Source: Variovorax davisae
GTDB lineage: Bacteria > Pseudomonadota > Gammaproteobacteria > Burkholderiales > Burkholderiaceae_C
Reading direction: 5' to 3'
Assembly (NCBI RefSeq): GCF_030316845.1
Contig: NZ_JASZYS010000003.1
Span: 496,001-560,000 of the forward strand
DNA: 64,000 bases
In this document: positions 18,982-49,752 of the stretch, one piece after another
How positions within the stretch are numbered: the first letter of the stretch is position 1
Layout: the number at the start of each line of letters is the position of its first letter
Notes under the pieces: generated by a model
Database searches by the model: none
Seen by the model: the letters and a program-made list of their open reading frames with translations, nothing else
What the model was told of the DNA's origin: nothing
Made by a program: the position numbers and the translations under genes

Positions 18982-18984
18982 TTC

Positions 18985-33607: not shown

Positions 33608-33912
33608 GACGCGAGGCTCCTGCGGCCGTACTGGCGCTCGACGCGCATACCTTCGCGCACGGTGATCAGGCAGGACTGCGTCGACGATGCGCCGTCTACG
33701 ATGGCCAGGCAGTCGAAGCACACACCCATCATGCAGAACGGTGCACGCGGGCTCCCACTCACTGGGGTGGTGCGGCTGGCCGACATCGGCTGCCGAAGCA
33801 GCACGGCGGCCACGGTTTCGCCGATCTCGGCGGTCACGGCTTGCCCGTCGACCGTGAGCGTCAGCAGTGGGCTAACGGCGTCATTGATTTTTCGGAACAT
33901 TGAAGCGCTCAT
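33604..33912 (-). CDS. 2Fe-2S small subunit, HcnA/opine-oxidase-like
   Basis: A 102-aa ferredoxin-like subunit. The cluster motif is C-x4-C-x2-C (CMMGVCFDC) with a final Cys in SSTQSCLITV. The fold is short, as in HcnA-type subunits. The start is uncertain: 33912 or the Met at 33900, the latter closer to the family N-terminus (FRKINDAVSPLLTLTVDG). Either way it overlaps the upstream FAD oxidase gene and is coupled to the HcnB-like gene. Confidence 0.82.
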   Translation of the reverse strand: MSASMFRKINDAVSPLLTLTVDGQAVTAEIGETVAAVLLRQPMSASRTTPVSGSPRAPFCMMGVCFDCLAIVDGASSTQSCLITVREGMRVERQYGRRSLAS

Positions 33913-35005: not shown

Positions 35006-35988
35006 CAGTCCGCCGTGATGTTGTTCTTCTTGACCACGGCGCCCCATTTTTCATTCTCTGTCTTGATCAGCTCGGTGAATGTCGAAACGGACGCGGGCGC
35101 TGGGTCGCATCCCAGGTCGGCGAGTCGCTTGATCACCTTGGGATCATTGAGTACCGCATTGAAATCGGCATTGATCTTTTGCACGATCGGCGCGGGCAGC
35201 CTTGCCGGCCCCATCACGCCGCCCCAGGTCAGCATTTCCGCGGCGGGCACCCCGGCTTCTGCCATCGTGGGCACGTTGGGCAGCAACGGCGACCGCTTGG
35301 GCCCGGTAACGGCTAGCGCTCGAAGGCGCCCCGCTTTGACGTTGGGCTCCATCGAGGTGATGTTGCCGATCATGAGCTGAATCTGCCCTGCCGCCAGGTC
35401 CATTTCCGCTGCCGGATTGCTCTTGTAGGGCACGTGCGTGATGTCGATGCCGGCACTTCCCCGGAACAACTCGGTCACCACGTGCAGAGCGGAACCCGAC
35501 CCGGACGAGCCGTAGAACAACTCATGCGGATGCGCCTTCGTGTAGGCAATGAGTTCCTTGACCGACTTGACGGGCAGGCTCCGCGTTACGCTCAGCAGAT
35601 TCGGGCTGGTACACAGCATCGCGATGGGTGTGAAGTCTTCGGTTGCCTTGTAGGGCAAGCGCTTGGCAACGACGTTGGCCACCACGAACGTCGAAAGCGT
35701 GGCCTGCCCCAACGTGTACCCGTCGGGCGCGGCCTTCGCAGTCGCATCGTTGGCAATGAGGCCCGTGGCACCTGGCCGGTTGTCGATGACGATGGGCTGC
35801 CCCCAGCGCTCACTGACCGCGGTAGCCACCACGCGCGCAATGGCGTCGGCGGCACCGCCGGCAGCACCGGGAACGATCCAACGCACGGGCTTGTCCGGAT
35901 AGGCTGCATGAGCGGCCCGCATCACGCCCGCAAAGCACAGCAACATGACAGCACCTGTGCGACGCATGGTTGAAAGATCGAATTTCAT
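35005..35988 (-). CDS. Bug/TctC-family periplasmic binding protein
   Basis: A 327-aa Bug receptor with signal peptide RTGAVMLLCFAGVMRAAHAA. The mature protein begins YPDKPVRWIVPGAAGGAAD, followed by IVIDNRPGATGLIANDA and PDGYTLGQATLSTFV; the canonical GGSxD loop reads GGAAD. It is first in the minus-strand operon and coupled by TGATG to the FAD oxidase, so its ligand is probably the oxidase substrate or a precursor. It is divergent from a LysR gene. Confidence 0.9.
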   Translation of the reverse strand: MKFDLSTMRRTGAVMLLCFAGVMRAAHAAYPDKPVRWIVPGAAGGAADAIARVVATAVSERWGQPIVIDNRPGATGLIANDATAKAAPDGYTLGQATLSTFVVANVVAKRLPYKATEDFTPIAMLCTSPNLLSVTRSLPVKSVKELIAYTKAHPHELFYGSSGSGSALHVVTELFRGSAGIDITHVPYKSNPAAEMDLAAGQIQLMIGNITSMEPNVKAGRLRALAVTGPKRSPLLPNVPTMAEAGVPAAEMLTWGGVMGPARLPAPIVQKINADFNAVLNDPKVIKRLADLGCDPAPASVSTFTELIKTENEKWGAVVKKNNITAD

Positions 35989-36211: not shown

Positions 36212-37141
36212 ATGGACAAGCGCATCACCCTTCGACATCTAGAAGCCTTTCGCGCAATCATGGTGCGACGCACCGTCACCGGGGCTGCTCAAATGCTCGA
36301 AGTCACACAGCCTGTGGTCACGCGCTTGATCGCTGATCTCGAGGAACGCATCGCGATGCCGCTGTTCAAGCGCGCTAACGGGCGTCTGGCGCCGACGCCC
36401 GAAGCGGCTCTGCTGTTCGAGGACGTGCACCAGTCGTTGATGGCCATCGAGCGCATTGCGAACGCGGCATCCAACATCAAGTCACTGAAGCTCGCGCGCC
36501 TCGGAATCGCCGCCGCGCCCGCCATGGCGCTCTCGTTCCTGCCACGCACCATCGCGAGCTTCACGAGCGAGCATCCGGAGACGCTGGTGTCCATGCGCAC
36601 GCATAGCACAGCCACCGTGATCGATATGGTTCAAAGCGGCCGCTGCGACCTCGGCTTCGCGATGTTGAATATGCGAAAGACACTGCACGGCAACAGCGAG
36701 TTGCTGGTGTCGGCCAAGATGGTAGGCGTGGTGCCGATCCACCACCGGCTAGCAAGTCGCAAAGTCCTTCGCCCCGAGGACTTCGAAGGCGAGAGCTTCA
36801 TCGCCCCGTCGCCCTTGATGGAAACGCGAACCCAGATTGATGCCGTGATGCTGTCGCACGGCGTCAATCGCCGGATCCACGTGGAGACCCAGCACTCTTC
36901 CGCCATCGTCAAACTGGTCGAAGCGGGCGCCGGCCTCGGCCTCATCGAACCCCTGACGGCCAGCGCCTACACAGGAGGGTTGCTCAAGTTCGTTGCATTC
37001 GAGCCGGCGATCGTCGCGGACTACTCCATCGTCATCTCGCAGCGAATGTCATCGACGCTCATCCTCAAGCCCTTCATCGACCATGCGCGAAGGGAAATCC
37101 GCAGGATGCTGCCCGGGCACCTGATTGTCCATGGCCAATAG
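36212..37141 (+). CDS. LysR-family transcriptional regulator
   Basis: A 309-aa LysR regulator. The N-terminal winged helix reads ITLRHLEAFRAIMVRRTVTG, then AAQMLEVTQPVVTRLIADLE, with RLAPTPEA. The effector domain follows (GIAAAPAMALSFLPRTIASF; QSGRCDLGFAML; VEAGAGLGLIEPL). Length is usual. It is divergent from the Bug/HcnCAB-like operon, which it probably regulates in response to the substrate. Confidence 0.9.
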   Translation: MDKRITLRHLEAFRAIMVRRTVTGAAQMLEVTQPVVTRLIADLEERIAMPLFKRANGRLAPTPEAALLFEDVHQSLMAIERIANAASNIKSLKLARLGIAAAPAMALSFLPRTIASFTSEHPETLVSMRTHSTATVIDMVQSGRCDLGFAMLNMRKTLHGNSELLVSAKMVGVVPIHHRLASRKVLRPEDFEGESFIAPSPLMETRTQIDAVMLSHGVNRRIHVETQHSSAIVKLVEAGAGLGLIEPLTASAYTGGLLKFVAFEPAIVADYSIVISQRMSSTLILKPFIDHARREIRRMLPGHLIVHGQ

Positions 37142-37207: not shown

Positions 37208-37465
37208 TCATGAGGATCTCAAGCTGACCGTGACCAAGAGCGCAACGAGTATCGCGAGAGTCAACCAGTAGCCGATTGGCATGGCGTCGTCCATATCGAT
37301 GTCATCCTCGGAAACTGTCGCGATGAGGCCAGGCAAGGGGCTGACCACAATTTCGCGCCTTCGAATTTTCGGCGCGCCATCTGAAGCGCCGAGCCCCTTC
37401 GCATGGGTCTCGAGTTCAGGACGCGTGGCGGCCAGATTAGGCCTGCTTGGCGACGGTTCATTCAT
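37208..37465 (-). CDS. Small single-span membrane protein coupled to the PrpB-like gene
   Basis: An 85-aa protein not matching a family I know. It has a polar N-terminal 60 residues and one C-terminal membrane helix ([19 protein letters not shown]). Its ATG overlaps the stop of the upstream lyase gene by ATGA, as for most genes of this operon, which supports it as real. A C-terminal tail anchor orientation is likely. Last gene of the ten-gene operon; function unknown. Confidence 0.6.
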
Positions 37466-38352
37466 TTCGCACTCCGATTGAAAAGCGCGTCGAGCCTTTC
37501 TTCAAACGCGTGGTAGTTGATGCACTCGTAAAGTTCCGCGCGCGTCTGCATGCTGTCGAGGACCGCCTGTTGAGAGCCATCCCGACGGATCGTCGCATAG
37601 ACCGCTTCTGCCGCCCGGTTCGCAGCGCGAAAAGCGCTCAGCGGATACAGCACCATGCCGACGCCGGCGCTCGCAAGCTCATCGACCGTGAAGAGCGGCG
37701 TCTGGCCGAACTCCGTGATGTTGGCAAGCACCGGGACGCCAAGGGTGGACGTGAAGCGGCGGTAGGTGTCGAGGTCATAGGCCGCCTCCGCGAAGACCGC
37801 ATCGGCGCCGGCCTCGACGAAGCGGGCGGCACGCTCCAGCGCGACATCGACGCCTTCGGAAGCGATCGCGTCGGTGCGCGCAATCAGGTAGAAGCCGGCA
37901 TCGGTGCGTGCGTCGACGGCGGCCTTGATGCGGTCGACCATCTCCTGGGTCGCGACGATCTCCTTGCCCGGCCTGTGGCCACAGCGCTTGGCGCCGGCCT
38001 GATCCTCGATGTGGCAGGCGGCCGCGCCGAACTTGACCAGGCTCTTGACGGTGCGCGCGATGTTGAAAGCGCTCGGTCCGAAGCCGGTGTCGATGTCGAC
38101 CAGTAAGGGCGCATCGCACACGTCGGTGATGCGGCGAACGTCGGTGAGCACGTCGTCCAATGTGTTGATGCCCAGGTCGGGGAAGCCGAGCGAGCCGGCC
38201 GCGACACCGCCGCCAGACAGGTAGATGGCCTTGAAGCCCGCGCTTTGCGCAAGCAGCGCATGGTTGGCGGTGGTGGCGCCGACGATCTGCAGCGGCTGTT
38301 CCTGCTGCAGGGCCAGACGGAAGCGCTGGCCGGGGGAGAGGGGAGCGGTCAT
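37462..38352 (-). CDS. Isocitrate lyase/PEP mutase-family C-C lyase, PrpB-like
   Basis: A 296-aa TIM-barrel enzyme of the methylisocitrate lyase group, cleaving a C-C bond in a 2-hydroxy dicarboxylate. It shows [20 protein letters not shown], the metal-site [10 protein letters not shown], the catalytic-loop [15 protein letters not shown] (KRCGH with catalytic Cys) and FYLIARTDA. Length is as in PrpB. No prpC, prpD or acnB is nearby, so a role outside the methylcitrate cycle (for example 2,3-dimethylmalate-type lyase) is possible. Separated by 24 bp from the cysteine hydrolase gene. Confidence 0.87.
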
Positions 38353-38376
38353 GGTGTGGGGGGGTCGGTGGACGAG

Positions 38377-39054
38377 TCAGGCGATGGCATGGAGCCTGGC
38401 GATCAGGTCGACGGTGGGCAGCACGTCGGCGTACTTCTGGCCGAGGTCGAACAGGTTGACCTTGTGCGAGGTGATGCTGCGGTCGTACACGCATTCCTGC
38501 GGAATCGCAACCTTGAAGTTCAGCGAGAAGGCATCGACCGCCGTGCCGCGCACACAGCCGCTGGTGCTGCAGCCGACGACGATCACGGTGTCGATCTGCT
38601 TGTCGATCAAATGGCTGCACATGGCGGTGCCAAAGAAGGCGCTGGGGTGCTTCTTCGGGATCAGCACGTCGCCCGGTTGCGGTGCGATCTCGGCGACGAA
38701 TTCATAGCCCTTGGCCGAGACGCCCATGATCGCGGGCACCTTCTCCGCCAGGCGGCCGCCGTCGTAGGCCTGCTTGGGCGCCACGTGGGGGTACATGACG
38801 GGCCATCCGCGGTCGCGAAAGACTTGGATCAGCGGAACGAGTGCCGAGACCGCATCCCAGGCGACCTCGCCGCAGGAGGTGGGGAACTCCTTGATCGCTT
38901 CGTAGAACGGCTTGCGTTCGGTGCCGACGGTGCGGTATTGCACGTCGATGATGAGCAGCGCGGGCCGCTGGCCGAGGCCGCTCGGGCGACCGAAGCCGGC
39001 GGCGGCATAGGCCTTCTGCTCGTCCTCGCTGATCACGTCGTCCCAGATGTTCAT
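38377..39054 (-). CDS. Isochorismatase-family cysteine hydrolase (N-carbamoylsarcosine amidase-like)
   Basis: A 225-aa cysteine hydrolase. The catalytic triad is visible as D37 (LLIIDVQY), K134/K135 (IPKKHPSAF) and C167 (STSGCVRGT), with the cis-peptide region before it. These enzymes hydrolyse amides such as N-carbamoylsarcosine, maleamate or ureido acids. Next to a hydantoinase-type enzyme (40 bp upstream) it is the natural second step after opening a cyclic amide or imide. Confidence 0.86.
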   Translation of the reverse strand: MNIWDDVISEDEQKAYAAAGFGRPSGLGQRPALLIIDVQYRTVGTERKPFYEAIKEFPTSCGEVAWDAVSALVPLIQVFRDRGWPVMYPHVAPKQAYDGGRLAEKVPAIMGVSAKGYEFVAEIAPQPGDVLIPKKHPSAFFGTAMCSHLIDKQIDTVIVVGCSTSGCVRGTAVDAFSLNFKVAIPQECVYDRSITSHKVNLFDLGQKYADVLPTVDLIARLHAIA

Positions 39055-39094
39055 GGTGTGCTCCGATGAGGTTGATTCGAATGGGAGAGAGTGT

Positions 39095-40483
39095 TCAGGC
39101 CGCCTGCAGTTCTACGCTGCCGTCGTTGTGCCTGAAGAGGTACTGGCCGTCGCCTGGGGCTCCAGTGAGCTTGCCGTCCTGCATCACGGTCTTGCCGCGC
39201 AGGATGGTCTCGACCGCCCAGCCCTTGAAGGTCCAGCCGTCGTAGATGCTGTAGTCCGAATAGGACAGAAGCTCTTCGTGGCGCACGGTGCGCTCCAGGT
39301 TCAGGTCGACCAGCGTGATGTCTGCGTCCATGCCCGGGCGCAGGGCACCCTTGCGGTCGTCGATGCCGAAGATGCGCGCCGGGTTGGCCGCCACCAGTTC
39401 GCAGATGCGACGCAGCGGCAGGCCACGCTTGTGATGCCCCTCGTGCAGCAGCACCGGCAGGATCGTGGCGGTGCCCGGGAAGCCCTGCGATGCGAGCCAT
39501 AGCGATTTGTCCTTGGTCGCGCGCTTGCGTGGGCAATGGTCCGAGGCGACGACGTCGATGCTGCCGTCGAAAAGGCCTTCCCACAGCGCTTCGCGTTCGG
39601 TCGCGTTCCGAAACGGCGGGTTGGCCTTGCCCATCCCGCCCAGGTCCATGTCGCTGGTGTGGGTCAAGTAGTGCGGGCAGGTCTCGACGTAGACGCGCTC
39701 GTAGCGCGCGCGCCAGCGCCGGACCTCGTCCAGGCCCAGCTTGGAACTCATGTGCGGGATGTAGATGGTCGCGCCAGCCTGTTCGGCGAGGAACATGGCG
39801 CGGATGCAAGCCTCGGCCTCGGTGATCGGGGGCTTGATCGCCTCCCACTGCAGCAGGTTGTCCAGCCCGCGGTCGAGCTGCGCGTTGCGCAGGCGGTTCA
39901 CGATCTCGATGTTCTCGGTGTGGCACACCACGGTGACGCCGCCGATGCCGGCCGCCTGCTGCAGCAGAGCGTGGAAATAGCCGTCGTCGGTGCCGTCCAG
40001 GCCCAGGTAGCGGCCTTCTTCACCCTTGAAGTTCATGAAGTACTTGAAGGAGGTGACGCCGTAGTCCTTTACATAGGAAGGCAGCTCCTGCACATGCAGT
40101 TCGGAGGCAGTACTGAAGTGGAAGCCGTAGTCGGTGTGGGCGCGCGGGCGCGCATAGCCCTGCTCGCGCCGGTAGACATCGCCGTAGGCCTCGTTGTTGA
40201 GGAAGTAGGCCAGCACGGTGGTGAAGCCGCCGATCGCCGCATGCGCAGTCTCGGTCTCGTACTCGGTGACCTTCTCGCCGAAGCCGAAATGCATGTGGGC
40301 CTCGATCAGGCCGGGGAAGACGTGCAGGCCATCGATGCGCCGCTCTGCGACGCCTGCGGCAACCGGGGTGCCGGGAGCCAGCAGGGCAGCGATGCGGCCG
40401 TCCTCCACCAGCAGATCGAGAGGGGATGGATCTTGCTCGGCACTGACGACGATGCCGCCGCGGAGGATGAAGTTGTGGCTCAT
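39095..40483 (-). CDS. Hydantoinase/dihydropyrimidinase-family cyclic amidohydrolase
   Basis: A 462-aa metal-dependent amidohydrolase. The ligands expected for a binuclear site are present: H63 and H65 (EAHMHFG), a Lys likely to be carboxylated near 147 (TSFKYF), H188 (CHTEN), H244 (IPHMSS) and D315 (VVASDHCPR). The start at 40483 is at the family N-terminus; a frame reaching 40660 lies inside the GTPase gene. The start overlaps the GTPase stop by ATGA. It would open a hydantoin, dihydropyrimidine, imide or lactam ring; which one is not visible. Confidence 0.87.
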   Translation of the reverse strand: MSHNFILRGGIVVSAEQDPSPLDLLVEDGRIAALLAPGTPVAAGVAERRIDGLHVFPGLIEAHMHFGFGEKVTEYETETAHAAIGGFTTVLAYFLNNEAYGDVYRREQGYARPRAHTDYGFHFSTASELHVQELPSYVKDYGVTSFKYFMNFKGEEGRYLGLDGTDDGYFHALLQQAAGIGGVTVVCHTENIEIVNRLRNAQLDRGLDNLLQWEAIKPPITEAEACIRAMFLAEQAGATIYIPHMSSKLGLDEVRRWRARYERVYVETCPHYLTHTSDMDLGGMGKANPPFRNATEREALWEGLFDGSIDVVASDHCPRKRATKDKSLWLASQGFPGTATILPVLLHEGHHKRGLPLRRICELVAANPARIFGIDDRKGALRPGMDADITLVDLNLERTVRHEELLSYSDYSIYDGWTFKGWAVETILRGKTVMQDGKLTGAPGDGQYLFRHNDGSVELQAA

Positions 40484-41547
40484 GGCGATTTGCTTTCGAA
40501 AGTCGACGGGGAAGAAGGTGCGGGCTCGACGATGGCGTCGAGCTCGGCACGACCGATGGATTCGCCGATGCACACCAGGAAGCCGGCGCGCCCGCCGGGC
40601 GGCCACGCGGCCAGGCGCTCCGGTGGCGCGAAGTAGCCCTGCACGCCCTGCACCACCCACGGCGCGCTGCCGTCGCCCAGCGCCAGCAGGCCCTTGCAGC
40701 GGAGCAACCGCTGGCCCAGGCGTGCCGACAGCGCCTGCGTCCAGCGCGCATAGCGCTCCCAGTCAAGGGGTTCGTCGATCGGCAGCACGTGCGTGGTGAT
40801 CTGGCTGAAGGCGCTGCCGTGGGTGTCGGGCTCGTCGCCGCCGTCGGCGTACTGGGGGCGAAGCGGGCCGCGCAGCCAGGCAGCCGGGCCCGCGCCGGCC
40901 CCGTGTGGCGTCGACTCAGGGGCGTAGAACAAGGGCGCCGGCGCTTCGCCCTGCCGCCAGAGCGAGACTGGCGCATGGGCGTTGATGCCAGCGAGCTGCG
41001 AAGCCAGTCGGTCGCGTTGCGTCGAGTCGGCGGTGTCGGTCTTGCTGATCACCAGGCGATCGGCGAATGCCACTTGGCGGCGGGCTTCGGCGTAGCGCTC
41101 CAATGTGTGCGGGCCGTTGCGTGCGTCCACCAGCGTCAGCACCTGCGACAGCGTGCAGCGCGGCACGAGCGCCGAGTCGCCGAGCAGCGATGCCACCAGC
41201 GGGCCGGGGTGGGCCAGTCCGCTGGTCTCGACGATCACGCGATTGAACGGGGCTATGCGGCCGCTGCTGCGCCGGGCGAACAGGTCGATCAGCGTGTCGC
41301 GCAGCGTGCCCGACGCGGCGCAGCACAGGCAGCCCCAATCGAGCAGCACGACCTGGTCGTCGGCACTCGACACCAGCAGATGGTCGAGCCCGACTTCGCC
41401 GAATTCGTTGACGATGACCATCGCGCCGGCGAACGCCGGATCGCGCAGCACAGCGTTGATCAGCGTCGTCTTGCCGCTGCCCAGGAAGCCGGTGACTAGG
41501 TCCACGGGCAGACGTCCAGGGGCAGAGGCGGCGAAGGCGGCAGCCAT
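40480..41547 (-). CDS. COG0523/CobW-family G3E GTPase, probable metallochaperone
   Basis: A 355-aa P-loop GTPase: TGFLGSGKTTLIN (Walker A), VNEFGEVGLDHLL, the metal-binding C-x-C-C (WGCLCC, C73/C75/C76), ETSGLAHPGP and a C-terminal CobW domain. Members deliver metals to client enzymes. Its stop overlaps the start of the hydantoinase-type metalloenzyme, making that enzyme the obvious client; the client relation is inference. Confidence 0.87.
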   Translation of the reverse strand: MAAAFAASAPGRLPVDLVTGFLGSGKTTLINAVLRDPAFAGAMVIVNEFGEVGLDHLLVSSADDQVVLLDWGCLCCAASGTLRDTLIDLFARRSSGRIAPFNRVIVETSGLAHPGPLVASLLGDSALVPRCTLSQVLTLVDARNGPHTLERYAEARRQVAFADRLVISKTDTADSTQRDRLASQLAGINAHAPVSLWRQGEAPAPLFYAPESTPHGAGAGPAAWLRGPLRPQYADGGDEPDTHGSAFSQITTHVLPIDEPLDWERYARWTQALSARLGQRLLRCKGLLALGDGSAPWVVQGVQGYFAPPERLAAWPPGGRAGFLVCIGESIGRAELDAIVEPAPSSPSTFESKSP

Positions 41548-41562
41548 CAGGGTCGCAGATTC

Positions 41563-43044
41563 TCAGAGCGGCGAAAGGCGTTGAACCAAGGTGGCCTTGA
41601 CCACCTTGCCCAACGAGTTGCGCGGCAATTCCTCGACGACAAACACCTGGCGCGGCGCCTTGTAGGGCGCAAGTTGCGACCTGCACAGCGCGATCAGGGC
41701 CTGTGGCTCGACCGGTGAGCGCACGGTGACGAAGGCGGCGACTTCCTCGTCGAACTCGCGCGACGGCCACCCGACCACGGCGGCGTCCGTCACTGCCGGG
41801 TGCGACATCAACATCGACTCCACCTCGAGCGGATAGATGTTCACGCCCCCGCGGATGATCATGTCCTTGGCGCGGCCCTTGAGGAAAAGATAGCCCTGGT
41901 CGTTGAAGCAGCCCAGATCGCCGGGGTAGAAAAATCCCTCCCTGAAGGCCTCACGGCTGGCCTCAGGATCCCGGTGGAAGCCGTCTGCCACGGCCGGGCC
42001 CCGGTAGCGGATGCGGCCGATCGTGCCTGGGGGTACGGGAACGTCGGCCTCGTCCACGATCTGCACCTCGACCCCGAAGACAGGCCGGCCCACGGATTCT
42101 CCGAACAGCTTCTGGTCGCGCGGCGACAGCACCGAGATGCCGCCGCCTTCCGTCGAGCTGTAGTACTCGATGAAGTTCGGGCAGATGGTTTCGCGGATCT
42201 GCACGCGCTCCGCCGCAGTCAACGCCGAACCCGAGGACACCAGCGTCTTGAGTTGCATCAGGGGCGCCAGCGTGGCGGTGTCGCAGGCGCGCAGGCGGCG
42301 CAACAGCGTCGGCACGAGGAACAGCACGGTCGAGCCTGTCCGAGCCACCTCCGCAGCCAATGCCTCTGGCTTGTAGGGCGGCGGGCACAGGACCACCGTG
42401 CCTCCGGCGTAGAGGGTCGACATGCTGAATGCGCGGCCGCCGCCGAAATAGAGCGGGGTGGCGTTGATGTAGGTTTCCCTGCTGCCGAAGCCCAGGTCCA
42501 CCCAGTGCGTCCAGAAGCGGTTGAGGAACTTCTGGTGCGACACCATCGGGCCCTTGGGCCGACCCGTCGTGCCCGACGACAGCGACATCGCGATGCCTCG
42601 CGCGCCGTCGGGAAAGTCACGCTCGGCATCCGTGGCCGCGACCGCGTCGCGCCAGGCTTCGTCGACGGAGATGCATGGCGCACCGTCGAATGCTGCGCCC
42701 GGCTCCACCATCACGGCGGCAGGTTCGAAATGCGCGGCCAGCCGCTGCTTCTCGTTGTCGCGCCAGCGGCAGTCCATCGGAAGAATCACGGCGCCGGCGC
42801 GGGCCACCGCATAGAGCATGAGCACATGCTCGATGGAGTCTTCCAGGGCAATGCCGACGATGCCTCCGGGCGTCACGCCGAGGTCGGCGAGCCTGGCCGC
42901 CCGCTGGCGCACGGCGAGGTTCAACTGGCGGTAGTCAAGCGTCTTCTCGCCGTGGATCAACGCTGGTTGGGTAGGGCGCTGTCGCGCATGGAGCGCGATC
43001 TGGTCGGCCAGGTTGTGAGCAGGCAGGGCGGCGATGTGGCTCAT
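41563..43044 (-). CDS. AMP-binding acyl-CoA ligase
   Basis: A 493-aa adenylate-forming ligase. It shows MSLSSGTTGRPKGPMVSHQK (P-loop), EYYSSTEGGGISVLS, the hinge KGRAKDMIIRGGVNIYP and the catalytic-Lys NSLGKVVKATL. It is coupled to the amidohydrolase gene by ATGA. A roughly 350-bp piece of a close relative (matching 42566-42916) is found again at 61561-61912. It probably activates the ring-opened acid before the acyl-CoA dehydrogenase of this operon. Confidence 0.88.
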   Translation of the reverse strand: MSHIAALPAHNLADQIALHARQRPTQPALIHGEKTLDYRQLNLAVRQRAARLADLGVTPGGIVGIALEDSIEHVLMLYAVARAGAVILPMDCRWRDNEKQRLAAHFEPAAVMVEPGAAFDGAPCISVDEAWRDAVAATDAERDFPDGARGIAMSLSSGTTGRPKGPMVSHQKFLNRFWTHWVDLGFGSRETYINATPLYFGGGRAFSMSTLYAGGTVVLCPPPYKPEALAAEVARTGSTVLFLVPTLLRRLRACDTATLAPLMQLKTLVSSGSALTAAERVQIRETICPNFIEYYSSTEGGGISVLSPRDQKLFGESVGRPVFGVEVQIVDEADVPVPPGTIGRIRYRGPAVADGFHRDPEASREAFREGFFYPGDLGCFNDQGYLFLKGRAKDMIIRGGVNIYPLEVESMLMSHPAVTDAAVVGWPSREFDEEVAAFVTVRSPVEPQALIALCRSQLAPYKAPRQVFVVEELPRNSLGKVVKATLVQRLSPL

Positions 43045-43937
43045 GTCCGCGTCTCCAGCCGCTTGCCATCGGCATCCAATCCGTAGATACGCAAAGCGTT
43101 GTCGCGCAGCATCTTGCGCTTGGGGATCGGTCGAAGGTCGAGCGCCTCGATCTCGTCGCGCGTGCGCTCAAAATCCAGCACCGGGAAGTCGGTACCGAAG
43201 ATCACCTTGTCCTGGCCGAAGGTGTTGATGTACTTGATGAAGGCTTCAGGCCAGTACTTCGGGCTGTGCGCATCGGTGCCGATGAAGACGTTGGGATGCT
43301 TCCAGGCCATGGCGATCATCTCTTCCGTCCACGGGATGCCGACGTGGATGCCGATCAGCTTGAGTTCGGGGAAATCGCAGGCCACCGCGTCCAGCGCGAT
43401 CGGCCGGCCCACGCTGCGCAGGCGGTGGTTCGGGTCGTAGAGCATCGATTGGCCCACCTGCAACTGCACAGGTACGTCGAGCTCGACGCACTTGGCATAG
43501 AACGGATACCACTTGGCATGGTCGGGTGCGAGTTCGAACCAGTGGGGATAGAAGTGCGCGCCGATGAAGCCGTGCTCCTTTACGCCCTTCTCGAGTTGTC
43601 GGACACCGTCCATGCCCTCGGTCGGGTCAAGGCCGGCCAGGCCATAGAAGCGGTCGGGATGTCGGTTGACTGCTTCGGCCACCATCTCGTAGGGGATGTG
43701 ATAGCTGGCCTTGTGCAGAAGAGGGCCCACCTTGGAGGCGATGAGAAAGGAGCGCTCGATGCCCGCCGCGTCCATGCGCCGCAGCATTTCCGCCAGCGTC
43801 ACGCCCTGCAGCGTCGTCTCCTTGACGTTCATCTTGCCGCCGAAGAAGGCGTCGCGGTTCGGCCGGATCGCGAGCGTCTCGGGCGTCCAGATGTTGACCA
43901 CCGTGTCGATGGCGAGGATGTCGTAAGCGTTCTTCAT
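43041..43937 (-). CDS. Amidohydrolase-2 family metal-dependent hydrolase/decarboxylase
   Basis: A 298-aa TIM-barrel protein of the amidohydrolase-2 group (ACMSD/2-pyrone-4,6-dicarboxylate lactonase relatives). Visible are a degenerate first strand (LAIDTVVNIWTP, without the usual HxH), GLAGLDPTEGMDGVRQLEKG, GAHFYPHWFELAPDH, LIGIHVGIPWTEE, and FGTDFPVLDFERT with the conserved Asp. The missing HxH suggests a mononuclear site formed by the later His and Asp or altered chemistry. Both ends overlap neighbours by ATGA. Confidence 0.82.
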   Translation of the reverse strand: MKNAYDILAIDTVVNIWTPETLAIRPNRDAFFGGKMNVKETTLQGVTLAEMLRRMDAAGIERSFLIASKVGPLLHKASYHIPYEMVAEAVNRHPDRFYGLAGLDPTEGMDGVRQLEKGVKEHGFIGAHFYPHWFELAPDHAKWYPFYAKCVELDVPVQLQVGQSMLYDPNHRLRSVGRPIALDAVACDFPELKLIGIHVGIPWTEEMIAMAWKHPNVFIGTDAHSPKYWPEAFIKYINTFGQDKVIFGTDFPVLDFERTRDEIEALDLRPIPKRKMLRDNALRIYGLDADGKRLETRT

Positions 43938-44881
43938 TGCGTGTCTCGTGGAAGGTTCGTTTCGTCGAGGAAGGCCGCGAACTGCGCCGCAGTCAGCGCC
44001 AGTGCATCGGCACTGCCGGTGCCTGGAGTGATCAGGCCGAGGGCATCGGGCATCAAAGCCCGAACACGCTCGAAGTACGCCATGAACATGTCGCTTCGGG
44101 CGCAGGCCAACAGCGTCGGCACCTTGACCAACGGCAGCCTGGGCGCCTTGTCGTAGCCGATGGCGGCTCGGTAGGCGATCGGATAGGTGCGGGCCGCCTT
44201 GAGCACCTCGACCACCTTGTCGTGCAGTTCGTCCGCACTCGGCAAGCCGAGGTCGCGCCGATGGGCCGTGTCGCGCTTGTACCAAGGCCAGTAGAGGTAG
44301 ACATCGCGCACGAAATGCCAGACCCATCCGAGCTGGCTGCCCATGAGGTCGATGGGTACGCCGGGCGCATAGTTCTGCAGCATGTCGGCGCGCTCCTCCT
44401 CGCTGTAGAGAGAGACACCGTCGAGCACCAGTCGCCGCACCCGATTCGGATGCGCGATGGCGATCTCGCAGGCGATGTTGGCACCGGTGTGGCTGCCGTA
44501 GAGATCGAAGCGATCGATGCCGAGCGCGTCGATGGCGCGCAAGTGGGCTTCGGCAAAGTAGGCGATCGGCGGTACCTCCTCGAGCGCGCAGTCCGGCGCC
44601 GAGGAGTCGCCATTGCCCAGGGTGTCCGTGGCGATCACCTGCCGCTCGTTCGAGAGTGCGCGAATGAGCGGTTCGAGCATCTTCGCGGACCCAGGTGACG
44701 CATGCAGCATCACAAGCGGTGCTCGACCTGACGTGCCGATGCCGGCGGTGCGGTAGTGAACTTGGCCCTCGGGCACATCCACGAATCCCCGTCGGATCTG
44801 CGGTGCATCCGACTGCGCCCGGGCGCACCGAGCTTGGATCTGGATCGCCGGCGGCAATGCGAGCTTGGACGACACCGTCAT
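43934..44881 (-). CDS. Alpha/beta hydrolase-fold protein with His in the nucleophile position
   Basis: A 315-aa alpha/beta hydrolase. The oxyanion strand LVMLHASPGSAKM, VIATDTLGNGDSSAP and the elbow DLYGSHTGANIACE are clear. In the G-x-Nuc-x-G elbow the central residue is H131 (G129-S-H-T-G133), not Ser, Cys or Asp. This suggests an atypical hydrolase, a decarboxylase/dioxygenase-like activity, or use of the shifted S130. The pattern resembles other annotated hydrolases with LYGSHTGA, so it is probably a real subgroup. ATGA overlap at both ends. Confidence 0.84.
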   Translation of the reverse strand: MTVSSKLALPPAIQIQARCARAQSDAPQIRRGFVDVPEGQVHYRTAGIGTSGRAPLVMLHASPGSAKMLEPLIRALSNERQVIATDTLGNGDSSAPDCALEEVPPIAYFAEAHLRAIDALGIDRFDLYGSHTGANIACEIAIAHPNRVRRLVLDGVSLYSEEERADMLQNYAPGVPIDLMGSQLGWVWHFVRDVYLYWPWYKRDTAHRRDLGLPSADELHDKVVEVLKAARTYPIAYRAAIGYDKAPRLPLVKVPTLLACARSDMFMAYFERVRALMPDALGLITPGTGSADALALTAAQFAAFLDETNLPRDTQ

Positions 44882-45912
44882 TCCTTGATGTCGGCGGCCT
44901 TCACCGCGGCTGCCCAGCGCACCAGGTCGGACTTGATCTTCGCGCCGTAGGCATCAGGCGTCGTGCCTTCGGCATCCAGGCCGTTGTCCTTCAACCGTTG
45001 CTGGATGTCGGGCATCTTGAGGATCTCGACGATTTCCGCGTGGAGTCTCGCGATGATGGCCGGCGGAGTCTTCGCCGGGGCCATCAGGCCGTACCAGGAG
45101 TTCACTTCGAAACCGGGGTAACTCTCCGCGACTGTCGGGACATCGGGCAATGCCGATGTGCGCTTCGTCGTGCTGACCGCGATCGGTCGCAGCTTGCCGT
45201 CCTTGATGAGACCCACCACACCAGCCACATTGACAAATGCAGTCTGGATCTGGCCGCCAAGCAAGTCGGTGTTGATCATCGAAGAACCCCGATACGGCAC
45301 GTGAATCATCTGGGTGCCGCTCATCTGGGCGAGCGTTGCGCCTGCCATGTGGGTGGAACTGCCGATCCCGACCGACCCATACGCGACCTGGCCCGGGTGC
45401 GCCTTGGCATAGGCGATCAGTTCCGCCAGGCTCCTAACCGGAAAGTCCGATCGCACGACCAGCACCGTGGGGCCCGAGACGATCTGCGTGATGGGCGCGA
45501 AGTCCTTGACCGAATCGTAGGACGGCTTGTTGGGCAAGGCGGGGCTGATCGCGATCGGGCCGACATGCGAGAACAGCAGCGTGTAACCGTCGGGCTGGGC
45601 GCGTGCCACGGCGGCTGCGCCGATCGTGCCGTTGGCCCCGCCGCGGCTGTCGACGACGAAGGGTTCTCCGAGCCGCTGGCCGAGCTTCTCCGCGATGGGC
45701 CGGATGATCGCTTCGGCGGGCCCGCCGGCTGCCCAGGGATTGATGATCGTCACGGGCCGGCTCGGCCAGGCATCCGCGGCGACGGCAGGAAAAGCGAGAA
45801 GCGGGGCACTCAGCACGAGGGCCGAGATGCAACTCATGAGTCGGTGGGTGAGGGTGGTCATGGGGTCTTGGGTAGGGAAGGATGGGCTGATCGCGGTGCC
45901 GGGCTTTTTCAT
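44878..45912 (-). CDS. Bug/TctC-family periplasmic binding protein
   Basis: A Bug receptor of up to 344 aa. The mature part has VTIINPWAAGGPAEAIIRPI, FVVDSRGGANGTIGAAAV and PDGYTLLFSHVGPI. The start at 45912 overlaps the acyl-CoA dehydrogenase stop by ATGA as elsewhere in the operon, but the Met at 45861 gives a more standard signal peptide (THRLMSCISALVLSAPLLAF, cleaved near AVAADA). The usual Asp of the ligand loop is Glu (GGPAE). It is the only receptor of the operon and has no membrane partner. Confidence 0.88.
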   Translation of the reverse strand: MKKPGTAISPSFPTQDPMTTLTHRLMSCISALVLSAPLLAFPAVAADAWPSRPVTIINPWAAGGPAEAIIRPIAEKLGQRLGEPFVVDSRGGANGTIGAAAVARAQPDGYTLLFSHVGPIAISPALPNKPSYDSVKDFAPITQIVSGPTVLVVRSDFPVRSLAELIAYAKAHPGQVAYGSVGIGSSTHMAGATLAQMSGTQMIHVPYRGSSMINTDLLGGQIQTAFVNVAGVVGLIKDGKLRPIAVSTTKRTSALPDVPTVAESYPGFEVNSWYGLMAPAKTPPAIIARLHAEIVEILKMPDIQQRLKDNGLDAEGTTPDAYGAKIKSDLVRWAAAVKAADIKE

Positions 45913-47051
45913 CGGAGGATGTCGCGCGCGATCAGCATGCGTTGAATTTCGGAAGAACCTTCGCCGATGCGGTAGTGGCGCACGTCGCGATAGAAGCGCT
46001 CGACGTGCACACCGCGAATGAGGCCCGCGCCGCCGAGAATCTGGACGGCCCGATCGGCAATCCGGCCGACCATCTCCGAGCAGAAGAGCTTCACCATGCT
46101 GGGTGCGCTGCCGGTGTCTTCACCGGCGTCGATCCGGCGCAGTGTTTCGTAGGCGAGCGAGCGGGCCAGCGCGAGTTCGGTGGCGGAGTCCGCCAGCATC
46201 CACTGAATGGCCTGGCGTTCGGACAACGGCTGTCCGAACGTGGTGCGGGTCTTGGCGTAGTCGATGGCAATCTCGAGCAAGCGGTCTGCCGTGCCGATGC
46301 AGGCGGCCGAAACACCCATGCGCCCGCTGACGAGCGAACCCATGGCGATGGCGAAACCTTGCCCTACTGCGCCCAGGACGGCGGCATCGCCGACGACGCA
46401 ATCTTCGAAGCGGATCTCGGAGATCTGGATCGGGTCCGAGCCGATCGTCTTGTCGGTGCGAGTGATCTCCATGCCGGGCGTGCCACGGTCCACCAGGAAC
46501 GCGGTGATGCCCCCGCGCGCCTTGAGGGCCGGATCGGTGACCGCGAGCACCATCACGACGTCGGCGCGATGGGCGCCGCTGATGTAGTGCTTCATGCCCG
46601 AGATCGACCAGCCACCTTCCACCTTCTTCGCTCGGGTGCGCAATGCCGCGGCATCGGAGCCGGCGTCGGGCTCGGTGAGGCCGAACGAGGCGCGCTGGCT
46701 GCCGTCCGCGAGCCCCGGCACGTAGCGCGCCTTCTGCTCCTCGGTGCCGAAGCGGGCGATCGCAATGGGGGTCAACCCGCTGGAGGCGTCCAGCATCAGT
46801 GTGAAGACGCGGTGCGAGCGGCCCAGTTCCTCCATGACGAGGCAATAGGTCGAAAGGTCGGCCTCGGCGCCGCCCAGGTTCGCCGGCAGACGCATGCCGA
46901 GATATCCCTGAGCCTGCAATGCGCCCAAGACTTGGGCTGGTACCTCGCCGAGTGCGTCGATCTGCAACGCCATCGGTTCGAGTTGCTCGGTGACGAAGCG
47001 ACGCACGGTGGGGCGCATCTCCGCAAGATCTGGATTGATGTCGAGTTGCAT
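45909..47051 (-). CDS. Acyl-CoA dehydrogenase
   Basis: A 380-aa FAD acyl-CoA dehydrogenase: RASFGLTEPDAGSDAAALRT (FAD/substrate motif), MKHYISGAHRADVVMV, TRTTFGQPLSERQAIQWMLAD and the C-terminal signature RDVRHYRIGEGSSEIQRMLI. The catalytic base, usually a Glu before the final Gly-rich loop, is not obvious, as the position reads IRGVHVERFYRD. The start at 47051 is chosen; a GTG at 47066 would put the start inside the palindromic operator. First gene of the ten-gene operon. Confidence 0.88.
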   Translation of the reverse strand: MQLDINPDLAEMRPTVRRFVTEQLEPMALQIDALGEVPAQVLGALQAQGYLGMRLPANLGGAEADLSTYCLVMEELGRSHRVFTLMLDASSGLTPIAIARFGTEEQKARYVPGLADGSQRASFGLTEPDAGSDAAALRTRAKKVEGGWSISGMKHYISGAHRADVVMVLAVTDPALKARGGITAFLVDRGTPGMEITRTDKTIGSDPIQISEIRFEDCVVGDAAVLGAVGQGFAIAMGSLVSGRMGVSAACIGTADRLLEIAIDYAKTRTTFGQPLSERQAIQWMLADSATELALARSLAYETLRRIDAGEDTGSAPSMVKLFCSEMVGRIADRAVQILGGAGLIRGVHVERFYRDVRHYRIGEGSSEIQRMLIARDILR

Positions 47052-47088: not shown

Positions 47089-47183
47089 TTCGATTGACGA
47101 AGTATCATGCAATCGGCATGCCAGGAGTCCAGGGTTTTCCCTTGGCCTTGCGCGCTAGACTGGTGCAAACAAGAAAGGCTGAA

Positions 47184-47957
47184 ATGTCCGAGACGCCGAG
47201 GGACTCGATGTATGTGACCGCGCTGGCACGCGGGATCGAGGTATTGCGATGCTTCACGCCCGAGAGGCCCGAACTCGGCACGAGCGAGATCGCGCGCCTG
47301 ACCGGCTTGCCGCAGCCCACCGTCTACAGGCTTTGCTACACCCTGAGCGACCTCGGTTGCCTGATGCCGGGTCGTTCACCGGACAAACTGCGCGTGGCGC
47401 CCGGGGTCCTGTCGCTCGGTCACGCCGCAGTGACGCACGGCGGCATCGCAGATCTCGCGCATCCGATGATGAATACGTTGGCAAACGAGTTCGATGCGTC
47501 GGTGTCGCTCGGCGCCCGCGATCGCACCAGCATGGTGATCGTGCAGCGCAGCGAAGCGCCCGGCATCGTCAACGTCAATCTGCACATCGGGTCGGCGCTT
47601 GACCTCGCCAACTCGTCGCTGGGCTGGGCGTGGCTTGCGGCCATCAACGATGAGGCGCGTAAGGACGCGCTGGAGCCGATCAAACGGGTGGGAGGCGATC
47701 GATGGCGCAAGGCTCAGAACCACGTGAAAATCGCCCTGAGCGAGTACGAAAGGGGAGGATTCGTGCTCAACTTAGGAAAATCGCATCCGGACATCAATGC
47801 GATCGGCGTGCCGGTGATCTCGCCGTCAAGAATTCGCGTGATGGCGCTGACCTGCGGCGGCGTTCGAACCAGCATGACGCGGGAGCGGCTCGAGAATGAC
47901 GTCGCACCTCGACTCGTCTCTCTGGCGCAGCAGCTATCGTTGGCCCTTGGTCCCTGA
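47184..47957 (+). CDS. IclR-family transcriptional regulator
   Basis: A 257-aa IclR regulator. The winged helix shows VTALARGIEVLRCFTPERPE, then LGTSEIARLTGLPQPTVYRL. The effector domain shows SLGARDRTSMVIVQRSEAPG, LANSSLGWAWLAAI and GGFVLNLGKSHPDINAIGVP. The start at 47184 follows AAGAAAGG and fits the family; the frame is open back to 47094. It is divergent from the ten-gene operon and next to a perfect palindrome, so it is the probable pathway regulator. Confidence 0.9.
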   Translation: MSETPRDSMYVTALARGIEVLRCFTPERPELGTSEIARLTGLPQPTVYRLCYTLSDLGCLMPGRSPDKLRVAPGVLSLGHAAVTHGGIADLAHPMMNTLANEFDASVSLGARDRTSMVIVQRSEAPGIVNVNLHIGSALDLANSSLGWAWLAAINDEARKDALEPIKRVGGDRWRKAQNHVKIALSEYERGGFVLNLGKSHPDINAIGVPVISPSRIRVMALTCGGVRTSMTRERLENDVAPRLVSLAQQLSLALGP

Positions 47958-48137: not shown

Positions 48138-48734
48138 TCAGAAAACGACCATCTCCCACGGATCGGTGCCCGGCTGGAGCAGCGGACGCGAGGTAATGCG
48201 CTCCATCGCCTCGCCTGCTTCATATCGCGCGGTCAGGTCTTCCGGGTCGAATTTCACGCCGATAAAATTCTCACGATAGGCCCCGCCGGAAAAAAAGGCC
48301 TGCACCTCGTCGGCGGTTTCAAAAACGTCGTGCTGCAGCTCCAGGCGATTGCCGTCCGGGTCCTTGTAGTAGAGGGAAATCGTGGGGCCGTGATTGATGG
48401 TCCAGTAGGGCGTGATGCCTTCTGCCTTCAGCCGCCGGTGGGTGGCCAGCAACTCGCCGAGGGACGCATAGGTGAAGGCCATGTGATCCATACCGGCCTG
48501 AGACTCCCCACGAACGGCAAGCGCCGGTTGGGCGATGAGCCCGATACGGTGATGCTCCTCGTCGTAGCTGAGAAAGCAAACCGACTCGTTCTCGAAGCTC
48601 GGGCGAGCCTGTAGCACCGTGAGGTACCAGGCTCTCGATCGCTGGAGATCGCTCGTCCGCAGCACCACGTGGGCCAGCTTGGCTGGGCGAATCGCCTCGC
48701 GGGTGGCGTCGGGGAGGGATCGAGTGGTCCTCAT
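48138..48734 (-). CDS. VOC-superfamily (extradiol dioxygenase/glyoxalase-like) protein
   Basis: A 198-aa vicinal-oxygen-chelate protein. The expected metal triad is present: H22 (LAHVVLRTSDL), H84 (GMDHMAF) and E132 (DPDGNRLELQ). The YYKDPDGNRLEL ending is typical of type I extradiol dioxygenase domains. It is a single module, shorter than two-module ring-cleavage dioxygenases (about 300 aa). The start overlaps the FAH-like gene stop by ATGA. Paired with an FAH hydrolase it suggests a ring-cleavage or glyoxalase-like step. Confidence 0.85.
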   Translation of the reverse strand: MRTTRSLPDATREAIRPAKLAHVVLRTSDLQRSRAWYLTVLQARPSFENESVCFLSYDEEHHRIGLIAQPALAVRGESQAGMDHMAFTYASLGELLATHRRLKAEGITPYWTINHGPTISLYYKDPDGNRLELQHDVFETADEVQAFFSGGAYRENFIGVKFDPEDLTARYEAGEAMERITSRPLLQPGTDPWEMVVF

Positions 48735-49621
48735 GCGTGGTCTCCTGTCTGAAAGCGCGACGCCGGTTCGGGCACGACGCGATTCTCGATGCTGCCGATG
48801 CCTTCGATCTCCACGCGCACTACGTCGCCGGTGCGCAGGTAGAGGGGTGGGTTCATCAGGGCACCCACGCCGGCGGGGCTGCCGGTCGTCAGGATGTCGC
48901 CCGGACACAGGGTTACGGCGGCCGAGAGTTCAGCGATCATGGCCTCGATGCGATGGATCATCTCGCCCGTATGCCCCTGTTGCCGCAGTTCGCCGTTGAC
49001 CCAGGTGCGCAGATGCAGGTCGTGCGGATCGGGAATCTCGTCGCGCGTCACGAGCCATGGCCCGAAGGGACCATGCGTATCGAAGGACTTGCCCAGCGTG
49101 TGCGTCGGCGAGCGCAGCTGCCAGTCGCGCACGCTGATGTCGTTGACCACGACATAGCCCGCGATGACACGCATCGCATCGTCAGCGCGAACATAGCGGC
49201 ATCGGGTTCCGATGACGACGCCGAGCTCGCCTTCATAGTCGAGCTGCCCGGATGCGCGCGGCAGGAACACGTCGTCGCGCGGCCCCGAAACGCAGGACAC
49301 CTGCTTGTTGAACCAGACCTGGCCGGGGCCCCTGACGAGACCATGCTTCGCAGCTTCCGCCAGATGCGACCCGTAGTTGCCGCCGAGCGCGAAGAATTTC
49401 TGGGGGTCGGGAATCGGCGCACAGACCTGCACCTCGGCCAGGGGCAGGCGCGGCGCATGCGTCGCCGCCCACCGTGCCCACTTGAAGCCGTCGCTCCCGC
49501 GCTCCAGAAGCTCCCGGAGACTGAGAGGCGCCGCGGGCTGGCTGGAAAGATCCGCGATGACGTCGCCTTCGGCCGAGCCGATCTTTAGTTGCCCTCCGTG
49601 GGAGAAGGTTGCCAGTTTCAT
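48731..49621 (-). CDS. Fumarylacetoacetate hydrolase family protein
   Basis: A 296-aa FAH-superfamily enzyme (hydrolase, hydratase or decarboxylase of 2-keto acids). It shows FFALGGNYGSHLAEAA, the metal-binding LDYEGELGVVIG (E-x-E), GYVVVNDISVRDWQ, KSFDTHGPFGPWLVTRDEI and DILTTGSPAGVG. The start is at 49621, where the family N-terminus KLATFSHGGQLKIG begins; the frame running back to 49786 lies across the LysR promoter. It is the first gene of a two-gene operon opposite a LysR. Confidence 0.88.
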   Translation of the reverse strand: MKLATFSHGGQLKIGSAEGDVIADLSSQPAAPLSLRELLERGSDGFKWARWAATHAPRLPLAEVQVCAPIPDPQKFFALGGNYGSHLAEAAKHGLVRGPGQVWFNKQVSCVSGPRDDVFLPRASGQLDYEGELGVVIGTRCRYVRADDAMRVIAGYVVVNDISVRDWQLRSPTHTLGKSFDTHGPFGPWLVTRDEIPDPHDLHLRTWVNGELRQQGHTGEMIHRIEAMIAELSAAVTLCPGDILTTGSPAGVGALMNPPLYLRTGDVVRVEIEGIGSIENRVVPEPASRFQTGDHA

Positions 49622-49696
49622 GGAATGTGAAGATGTTGAACGATCGCGATCATTCCCCCTGGTTGGAAACGCAACAATCGGGTCTGCTCGAACGCT

Positions 49697-49716
49697 GCGT
49701 TCTGCACGTAGAACGC
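49697..49716. promoter_or_regulatory. Palindromic site between FAH-like gene and LysR
   Basis: GCGTTCT and AGAACGC are perfect 7-bp arms around GCACGT, in the 131-bp divergent spacer. Likely an operator for the adjacent LysR regulator. Confidence 0.55.
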
Positions 49717-49752
49717 GCACACGCGAAAATTCCGACAAGGAGACACCCACCC

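Follow-up and report, generated by a model that had tools for sequence, protein, structure and literature searches.

A Variovorax davisae operon with a possible role in aerobic catabolism of a branched cyclic imide or a similar cyclic amide

The fermentation of nicotinate by Eubacterium barkeri ends with dimethylmaleate hydratase and 2,3-dimethylmalate lyase, the latter a pyruvate-releasing enzyme of the phosphoenolpyruvate mutase/isocitrate lyase superfamily, and the route also includes a B12 mutase and methylitaconate isomerase. A like succession, an amidohydrolase opening a cyclic amide and then a hydratase and a pyruvate-releasing lyase, may be encoded by an operon located on the minus strand (47051-37208) of a 64,000-nucleotide stretch of the Variovorax davisae genome (RefSeq assembly GCF_030316845.1, contig NZ_JASZYS010000003.1, positions 496,001 to 560,000; hereafter the window). 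It comprises, from 5' to 3', genes for an acyl-CoA dehydrogenase (ACAD), a Bug/TctC solute-binding protein, an alpha/beta hydrolase (ABH), an amidohydrolase-2 protein (AH2), an AMP-forming acyl-CoA ligase (CoAL), a G3E-family GTPase, a hydantoinase/allantoinase-fold cyclic amidohydrolase (HYD), an isochorismatase-fold cysteine amidohydrolase (CHD) and a PrpB lyase, followed by a doubtful open reading frame of 85 amino acids (ORF85). With a probability of roughly 0.45, we propose that these genes serve the aerobic breakdown of a compound with an alkyl-branched four-carbon core, namely a cyclic imide or a cyclic amide much like one. We infer the substrate class, a cyclic imide, and every one of the reactions from three things visible in the sequences: the family of each protein, the preservation of the catalytic residues in HYD, CHD and PrpB, and the repeated occurrence of these genes together.

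The operon differs from the E. barkeri system in the aerobic life of its host, in the extra cysteine amidase, CoAL and ACAD, and in a lyase of methylisocitrate lyase (MICL) grade. No B12 mutase or methylitaconate isomerase was found in the operon, the only part of the genome searched for them; the operon also has no gene of the aconitase-family dimethylmaleate hydratase type, although relatives do, as does another cluster of the V. davisae genome. The aerobic nicotinate (nic) pathway employs the maleamate amidohydrolase NicF, which is of the same cysteine hydrolase family as CHD; however, canonical NicF falls outside the CHD clade, and the operon has neither a pyridine hydroxylase nor a dioxygenase. 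With hydantoinase/N-carbamoylase systems the operon has in common the fold of both hydrolases, whereas its HYD forms a subfamily of its own and has a dicarboxylate lyase as a frequent neighbour. Nicotinate routes, the cyclic-amide ring opening of the fermentation route included, are compared in PMC9304392, where in Aspergillus nidulans HxnM opens the imide hydrolytically and HxnN hydrolyses the half-amide. The PuuE-like and amidase genes found in relatives of the operon recall this pair, whereas the operon itself has HYD and CHD and continues to a C-C lyase.

The first-pass annotation of the window could name no described aerobic pathway with this set of genes, and none was found in the open-licence literature, which is weak evidence; among the open-licence matches listed for maleimide, hematinic acid and imides no such pathway appeared either. 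The idea of a conversion of citrazinate to cis-aconitamide was dropped, the literature matches listed for it being materials, drug or analytical chemistry. As far as searched, the pathway is undescribed; its enzyme families are known, their combination is new.

The ring-opening genes and their partners in other genomes

A scan for CHD gave 60 loci, 48 close (at least 56% identity, L027-L074, some truncated) and 12 distant (at most 41%, L075-L086), at which the presence of genes was scored by tblastn with an 80-bit threshold. Alpha- and betaproteobacteria and actinobacteria account for the close loci, apart from two in metagenome-assembled genomes, one labelled Bacillota and the other Proteobacteria. 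Since the gene association recurs across phyla it is not due to chance; the operon is real and its parts are conserved. The most frequent partners of the close CHDs are HYD (41 of 48), a PrpB-type lyase (38), MmgE/PrpD (33), a FAD_binding_2 flavoprotein (31) and a GntR regulator (28), followed by PuuE-like proteins (12), amidases (8), G3E (7), LeuC/AcnA (6), CoA transferase (5), ABH (4), AH2 (3) and ACAD (1), with an HMG-CoA-lyase-like protein in none. The 12 distant loci have a different company, namely CoA transferase and an HMG-CoA-lyase-like protein (5 each), HYD, amidase and ACAD (3 each) and a PuuE-like protein (1), and at the same threshold PrpB, MmgE, the flavoprotein, GntR, G3E, LeuC/AcnA, ABH and AH2 are each absent from all of them.

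In Ottowia (L028) a Liv transporter, MmgE, the flavoprotein, a second MmgE, G3E, HYD, CHD and PrpB follow one another. Fumarate and urocanate reductases are the best matches of the single cluster flavoprotein that was searched; for the single cluster MmgE searched it is iminodisuccinate epimerase, a weak match (E 7.5e-9), followed by cis-aconitate-decarboxylase-type proteins. Other hydratases occur as well: AcnA in Shinella and Antarctobacter, whose stretches gave no MmgE match, AcnA with weak MmgE relatives in the genome G340, and LeuCD beside MmgE in Haloferax and L073. The lyase is a MICL-type PrpB in the window, Ottowia and Hydrogenophaga, a petal-death-protein-like PrpB elsewhere, or an HMG-CoA-lyase-like enzyme paired with a CoA transferase, a variant seen only with distant CHDs, e.g., in Haloferax. 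PuuE-like proteins, relatives of cyclic imide hydrolases, replace HYD in Comamonas and stand beside it in several other loci, and HyuAB-like open reading frames (identified by eye) lie beside HYD in L045 and L073. The genome of V. davisae itself contains a second cluster (L156, G000:C40:383001-402000) with a Liv transporter, Bug, LeuC, LeuD, HyuB/HyuA, the flavoprotein and a PrpB-type lyase; further on lie AH2-like and RraA-like genes (these two, Liv and LeuD were read by eye). These alternatives are not all clean swaps of one enzyme for another, several of them standing beside the usual enzyme and not replacing it. Taken together, the alternative enzymes of like chemistry are the strongest hint at the route, and they fit a route that would start from a cyclic amide or imide, pass by way of a half-amide and a diacid to a hydroxylated branched diacid, and end in retro-aldol cleavage. 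The echo of 2,3-dimethylmalate cleavage heard in the first-pass annotation was apt: a single PrpB partner from a different phylum was searched, and it has the petal death protein as its closest PDB match and also matches 2,3-dimethylmalate lyase; some clusters, moreover, contain LeuCD-like hydratases. Members of this lyase superfamily are named in PMC7609661.

Near the AcnA-PrpB-HYD-CHD cluster of the Shinella plasmid (L124) a hemC gene is found (18402-19334; 333 bits, cut-off 164). The link to porphyrins which it brings to mind is a single case on one plasmid and is not used as evidence.

HYD scores 264.9 bits against the NCBIfam D-hydantoinase model, whose cut-off is 393.25, and it stays below the cut-off in the best 25 of the 53 NCBIfam families matched, hydantoinase and allantoinase models included; for this reason an ordinary hydantoin or allantoin operon is not favoured, and it is kept as a rival. 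The ligands of the binuclear metal site (HxH, Lys, His, His, Asp) are intact in 16/16 cluster HYDs. At the positions which we take to be those of the hydantoinase substrate-site Tyr and Asn, the window HYD has Phe and Gln; the Asn occurs in none of the 16 cluster HYDs and the Tyr in three, those of Haloferax, Shinella and Antarctobacter. The Asn of an NPPxR motif is invariant in all 16, the three references having Thr or Ala. In a tree of 41 rows, 13 of the 16 cluster HYDs and one HYD from the genome G065 form a clade with 98/87 support, and the three HYDs carrying Tyr fall outside it. HYD thus represents a subfamily of its own within the hydantoinase/allantoinase fold, and it is proposed to be the ring-opening enzyme. 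G3E, encoded immediately 5' of HYD in several plasmid clusters, is a probable metal chaperone for it.

CHD matches the PDB entries 4l07, 3ot4/3uao, 26st and 1nba, with near-equal scores for NicF (3ot4) and the N-carbamoylsarcosine amidohydrolases (102.5 and 102.1 bits). Its Lys and Cys, presumably catalytic together with Asp, align with those of 3ot4, 26st and 1nba, and the Asp with that of 26st and 1nba (the 3ot4 segment starts later). In a tree of 44 rows the window-type CHDs form a clade with 99/99 support, outside which canonical NicF is placed. The clade includes the CHDs of two Variovorax plasmid clusters, whose rows are long-branched and should be read with caution. These clusters contain a molybdenum hydroxylase, an SRPBCC/CoxG-like protein, a FAD monooxygenase and a homologue of 2,5-dihydroxypyridine dioxygenase situated close to CHD or 18 kb away. 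In Variovorax SRS16 the gene two positions from CHD is annotated as leucyl aminopeptidase, and its product is 83% identical to the annotated 2,5-dihydroxypyridine 5,6-dioxygenase encoded 18 kb from CHD on a V. boronicumulans plasmid; among 25 records listed one bears the latter name, most others being called leucyl aminopeptidase or left nameless. In the two pyridine-type clusters a maleamate-type amide is the expected substrate of CHD, and the enzyme is proposed to be a half-amide hydrolase near NicF and N-carbamoylsarcosine amidohydrolase.

The first-pass annotation called the lyase PrpB-like, which named the right family and understated the match, both NCBIfam methylisocitrate lyase cut-offs being passed (PRK11320, 506.4 bits, cut-off 353; prpB, 409.9 bits, cut-off 354.4). 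In the segment compared, the protein shares 71% identity with its Salmonella counterpart, and its catalytic motifs SGGG, DxD, ED..KRCGH and N[IL]TEFG all match the aligned Salmonella 1o5q and Burkholderia 3eoo segments. It has QAGAK and FAEA where 1o5q has QVGAK and FPEA, a difference dropped as a pathway marker after both variants were seen in the homologue from G021, whose 12-kb stretch has no HYD or CHD. The 2-methylcitrate cycle, which the cut-offs and motifs call to mind, differs in its gene set: in the 7.18-Mb genome (44 contigs) prpF has no match and no prpC is found above the cut-off (best prpC-type match 316 bits, cut-off 421.3), the gene sits inside a ring-opening operon, and a PrpB homologue at E 1e-85 or better is uncommon in the genus, being found in 7 of 100 genomes, the window's own counted. 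Since in addition the five other PrpB-family matches of the genome are each at most 41% identical to it, the window PrpB does not look like the product of a housekeeping gene, and a housekeeping methylcitrate cycle is not favoured. A non-standard version of the cycle may exist, to judge by two MmgE/PrpD genes elsewhere in the genome, one of them ca. 3.4 kb from a weak citrate-synthase-like match (C44). In three other genomes of the genus (L148, L149 and L150 of G014, G039 and G021, respectively) a PrpB 73-79% identical to that of the window is encoded beside relatives (28-31%) of the flavoprotein and/or MmgE, with no HYD or CHD match within the 12-kb stretches; these neighbourhoods possibly represent a shared sub-pathway for branched succinates.

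The acyl-CoA module and its possible connection with ring opening

The first five genes of the operon form a second conserved block, called here module A, the ring-opening genes (G3E, HYD, CHD, PrpB) with their usual MmgE and flavoprotein companions being module B. In Variovorax SRS16 the ACAD, Bug, ABH, AH2 and CoAL genes follow in the window order, their products being 78, 72, 73, 88 and 80% identical to those of the window, with a divergent IclR gene at the 5' side (61%) and a Liv-MmgE-flavoprotein-MmgE-G3E-HYD-CHD cluster directly 3'. By this comparison the operon looks like a fusion in which module A is followed by the G3E-HYD-CHD-PrpB portion of module B. Outside the window, AH2 orthologues of at least 70% identity were located at nine sites (five on plasmid records, four in genomes), each of which has a CoA ligase on its stretch as well. 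The company of AH2, CoAL, ABH and a distant ACAD (32%) in Comamonas endophytica consists of two PuuE-like genes and an isochorismatase-family gene of 33% identity, and in Bradyrhizobium (L048) ABH, AH2, HYD, CHD, PrpB, MmgE and the flavoprotein lie within 20 kb. A single stretch of ca. 24 kb in G340 comprises CHD, CoAL, AH2, AcnA, PrpB, an NDP-forming acyl-CoA ligase, an enoyl-CoA hydratase, ACAD and a thiolase, with HYD and G3E just beside it. The ACAD in question is 67% identical to that of the window and lies beside the enoyl-CoA hydratase and thiolase genes, a company which suggests that the second product of the lyase would be beta-oxidised.

All 23 NCBIfam matches of the window ACAD are below the cut-off and therefore no substrate is assigned to it; its proposed role is the dehydrogenation of the acyl-CoA that CoAL would form. 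ABH had been described as odd, and justly so, for the G-x-S-x-G motif is replaced by G-S-H-T-G, which puts His at the nucleophile position. The same His is present in all six aligned rows from such loci (window, L048, L136, L138, L139, L143), and the homologue from a pyridine cluster (L108) has Ser there. AH2 is without the N-terminal HxH metal motif (IDTVVNIWT in the window), which is absent from 10/10 aligned rows, i.e., the window and nine relatives, and this HxH-less group spans bacteria and one haloarchaeon. A hydratase, decarboxylase or lactonase activity of AH2 is possible.

The proposed route and competing explanations

Uptake of the substrate would be supported by the Bug-type receptor. 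HYD, its metal site loaded with the help of G3E, would open the ring to a half-amide, from which CHD, as a NicF-like cysteine amidase, would release ammonia to leave a branched dicarboxylate. This acid would then be converted into a 2-hydroxy, 2-alkyl acid, the weakest step for the window: in relatives the fumarate-reductase-like flavoprotein and MmgE, AcnA or LeuCD could perform it, whereas the window operon offers no candidates for the hydration other than AH2 and ABH. Retro-aldol cleavage by PrpB would give pyruvate and a second acid, which CoAL would activate and ACAD dehydrogenate for beta-oxidation. The route is favoured because HYD, CHD and PrpB-type lyases keep turning up alongside hydratase families that could make the kind of substrate the lyase needs. 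Also counted for it are the differing partners of close and distant CHDs, the alternatives of like chemistry, the pyridine-type relatives of CHD, the SRS16 and G340 arrangements, the missing prpF and above-cut-off prpC, and the lack of hydantoinase substrate-site residues in HYD. The first-pass annotation had outlined the same logic of ring opening, amide hydrolysis, CoA activation, dehydrogenation and C-C cleavage of a branched dicarboxylate; comparative genomics favours it, but the N-carbamoyl-amidase company of a HYD cousin, described below, counts against an imide.

Several further observations weigh against the proposal. By Pfam the operon has no MmgE, AcnA or LeuCD hydratase, and its genome has two MmgE homologues at other sites which share no more than 26-30% identity with the pathway type. 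In SRS16, PrpB is missing from the 31 kb read. Stretches read from G236, G274, Comamonas and Rhizobium have the AH2-CoAL pair or the whole of module A but neither HYD nor PrpB nor a close CHD, and module B occurs without module A; since each is found without the other, the two need not form one linear route. At the close CHD loci, some of them truncated, HYD was not found in 7/48 and PrpB in 10/48, and the variant with CoA transferase and HMG-CoA-lyase-like enzyme goes with distant CHDs (HMG-CoA-lyase-like 5/12 vs. 0/48, CoA transferase 5/12 vs. 5/48). CHD scores alike with N-carbamoylsarcosine amidohydrolase and with NicF, the canonical form of which lies outside its clade. Lastly, in G065, a genome of the same genus with 6% listed contamination, a HYD 48% identical to that of the window and located in L116 (the stretch G065:C57:1-20000) has as neighbours F420 genes and genes for a nitrilase-type N-carbamoyl-amidase relative and a D-amino-acid-dehydrogenase-like protein (both below the cut-off), with an omega-aminotransferase and a methylmalonate-semialdehyde dehydrogenase (both above the cut-off) 6-7 kb on, and the G340 cluster holds an Asp/Glu/hydantoin racemase. 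The G065 neighbours and the racemase point to hydantoin-like rings, and the G065 set looks like a reductive ureide route.

The rival that survives best, itself unlikely, is a ureide route in which HYD would open a hydantoin or dihydropyrimidine to an N-carbamoyl amino acid, CHD would decarbamoylate it, and a deamination would precede cleavage by PrpB. The hydantoinase fold of HYD, the alignment of CHD with 26st and 1nba, and the G065 and G340 genes just mentioned all agree with it, but it leaves unexplained why CHD keeps company with PrpB-type lyases and several unrelated hydratases, and HYD lacks the hydantoinase substrate-site residues and falls short of the cut-offs in its best 25 of 53 families. 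As to deamination, an aminotransferase beside a cluster was noted in the Shinella plasmid, no systematic count having been made. The F420 island of G065, which encodes CofD, CofH and an NADPH-dependent F420 reductase (above the cut-off), an F420-type LLM oxidoreductase (below the cut-offs) and a G3E protein, possibly serves an F420-dependent reductive ureide route.

It is decidedly less likely that the transcript joins, by rearrangement, two unrelated short pathways, with module A handling one acid and module B another ring. The independent occurrence of the modules, and a separate IclR gene for each in SRS16, would agree with such a fusion; however, the modules are adjacent both in SRS16 and in PBL-E5, where plasmids carry them (AH2 and ABH matches just 5' of the CHD cluster), their genes are mingled in G340 and G148 and gathered in the Bradyrhizobium stretch, and in Comamonas those of module A accompany another imide-type hydrolase set. 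Very improbable is a lower pathway for alkylated pyridines, in which CHD and PrpB would process a maleamate-type intermediate made elsewhere and HYD would act on a cyclised side product: pyridine-type clusters that encode a 2,5-dihydroxypyridine dioxygenase homologue do include window-clade CHDs, but the usual CHD partner is HYD (41/48) and not a dioxygenase, and no pyridine hydroxylase was seen in the operon or in the HYD+CHD+PrpB loci with named genes, a part of the 48.

Within the imide reading, it is a long shot that the route, bacterial and archaeal, mineralises alkylmaleimides from heme and chlorophyll breakdown, i.e., hematinic acid, methylethylmaleimide and methylvinylmaleimide. All these maleimides bear a methyl group on the ring. 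Once the ring is opened, the amide hydrolysed and the product hydrated, PrpB-type cleavage would yield pyruvate with glutarate, butyrate or vinylacetate, the latter acids being oxidised via CoAL and ACAD. The occurrence of MICL-like and of petal-death-protein-like lyases in the same position would suit side chains that do or do not bear a carboxylate.

If the imide reading is true, an undescribed modular aerobic pathway is common to alpha- and betaproteobacteria and actinobacteria, with a variant form in haloarchaea, and like chemistry appears to be covered in it by unrelated ring hydrolases (HYD, PuuE-like, HyuAB), hydratases (MmgE, AcnA, LeuCD) and lyases. It would give a function to three orphan groups, the HYD subfamily, the AH2 group devoid of the metal motif and the ABH group with His at the nucleophile position, and the question which natural cyclic imide or amide soil bacteria eat would become one for growth tests with a genetic marker.

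Operon layout and neighbouring genes

The operon is tightly packed (Table 1), with ATGA overlaps at six of the nine junctions (ACAD/Bug, Bug/ABH, ABH/AH2, AH2/CoAL, G3E/HYD and PrpB/ORF85) and gaps of 15, 40 and 24 bases at the others. The families and the gene order named in the first-pass annotation were borne out, on the minus strand, by Pfam and NCBIfam. Its ten-gene overlapping operon is reduced to nine coding genes, the tenth being doubtful: ORF85, taken there for a membrane protein, has no Pfam or NCBIfam match and, window copies aside, no significant homologue among the relative loci compared, and its third-position GC is 0.67 as against 0.83-0.90 for PrpB, AH2 and CHD. On account of this weak coding bias and the missing family and relatives ORF85 is doubtful as a gene and probably not conserved.

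Table 1. Positions in the window of the operon genes and of the two flanking regulators
Feature	Position	Strand	Basis
Acyl-CoA dehydrogenase (ACAD)	45909-47051	-	380 aa from ATG 47051; Pfam Acyl-CoA_dh_1/N/M
Bug/TctC periplasmic solute-binding protein	44878-45912	-	Pfam TctC 8e-70
Alpha/beta hydrolase (ABH)	43934-44881	-	Pfam Abhydrolase_1
Amidohydrolase-2 (AH2)	43041-43937	-	Pfam Amidohydro_2 1e-43
AMP-forming acyl-CoA ligase (CoAL)	41563-43044	-	Pfam AMP-binding + AMP-binding_C
G3E/CobW-family GTPase	40480-41547	-	Pfam cobW + CobW_C
Hydantoinase/allantoinase-fold cyclic amidohydrolase (HYD)	39095-40483	-	NCBIfam D-hydantoinase, below cut-off
Isochorismatase-fold cysteine amidohydrolase (CHD)	38377-39054	-	Pfam Isochorismatase 4.5e-28
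PrpB, methylisocitrate-lyase-grade	37462-38352	-	NCBIfam PRK11320 + prpB, both above cut-off
ORF85, 85 aa, hydrophobic stretch C-terminal	37208-37465	-	ORF only
IclR-type regulator, divergent from operon start	47094-47957	+	ORF; type by eye
LysR-type regulator, convergent with operon end	36212-37141	+	ORF; type by eye

An alternative start of ACAD, GTG 47066, would give 385 amino acids; the G340 homologue begins at the position matching ATG 47051. Gene calls in unannotated loci are approximate, being based on simple open reading frame rules with third-position GC or cross-locus support. In SRS16 and Comamonas, too, an annotated IclR gene diverges from module A, and the IclR-type regulator of the window is 61% and 54% identical to their respective products. 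Beside it lie a glyoxalase/VOC-type protein gene (48138-48908) and an adjoining open reading frame (48731-49786), fumarylacetoacetate-hydrolase-like by eye. Beyond the LysR gene, a DAO-type FAD oxidoreductase (33881-35047) and a Bug-like receptor (35005-35988), the latter assigned by eye, are encoded and are possibly linked to the operon.

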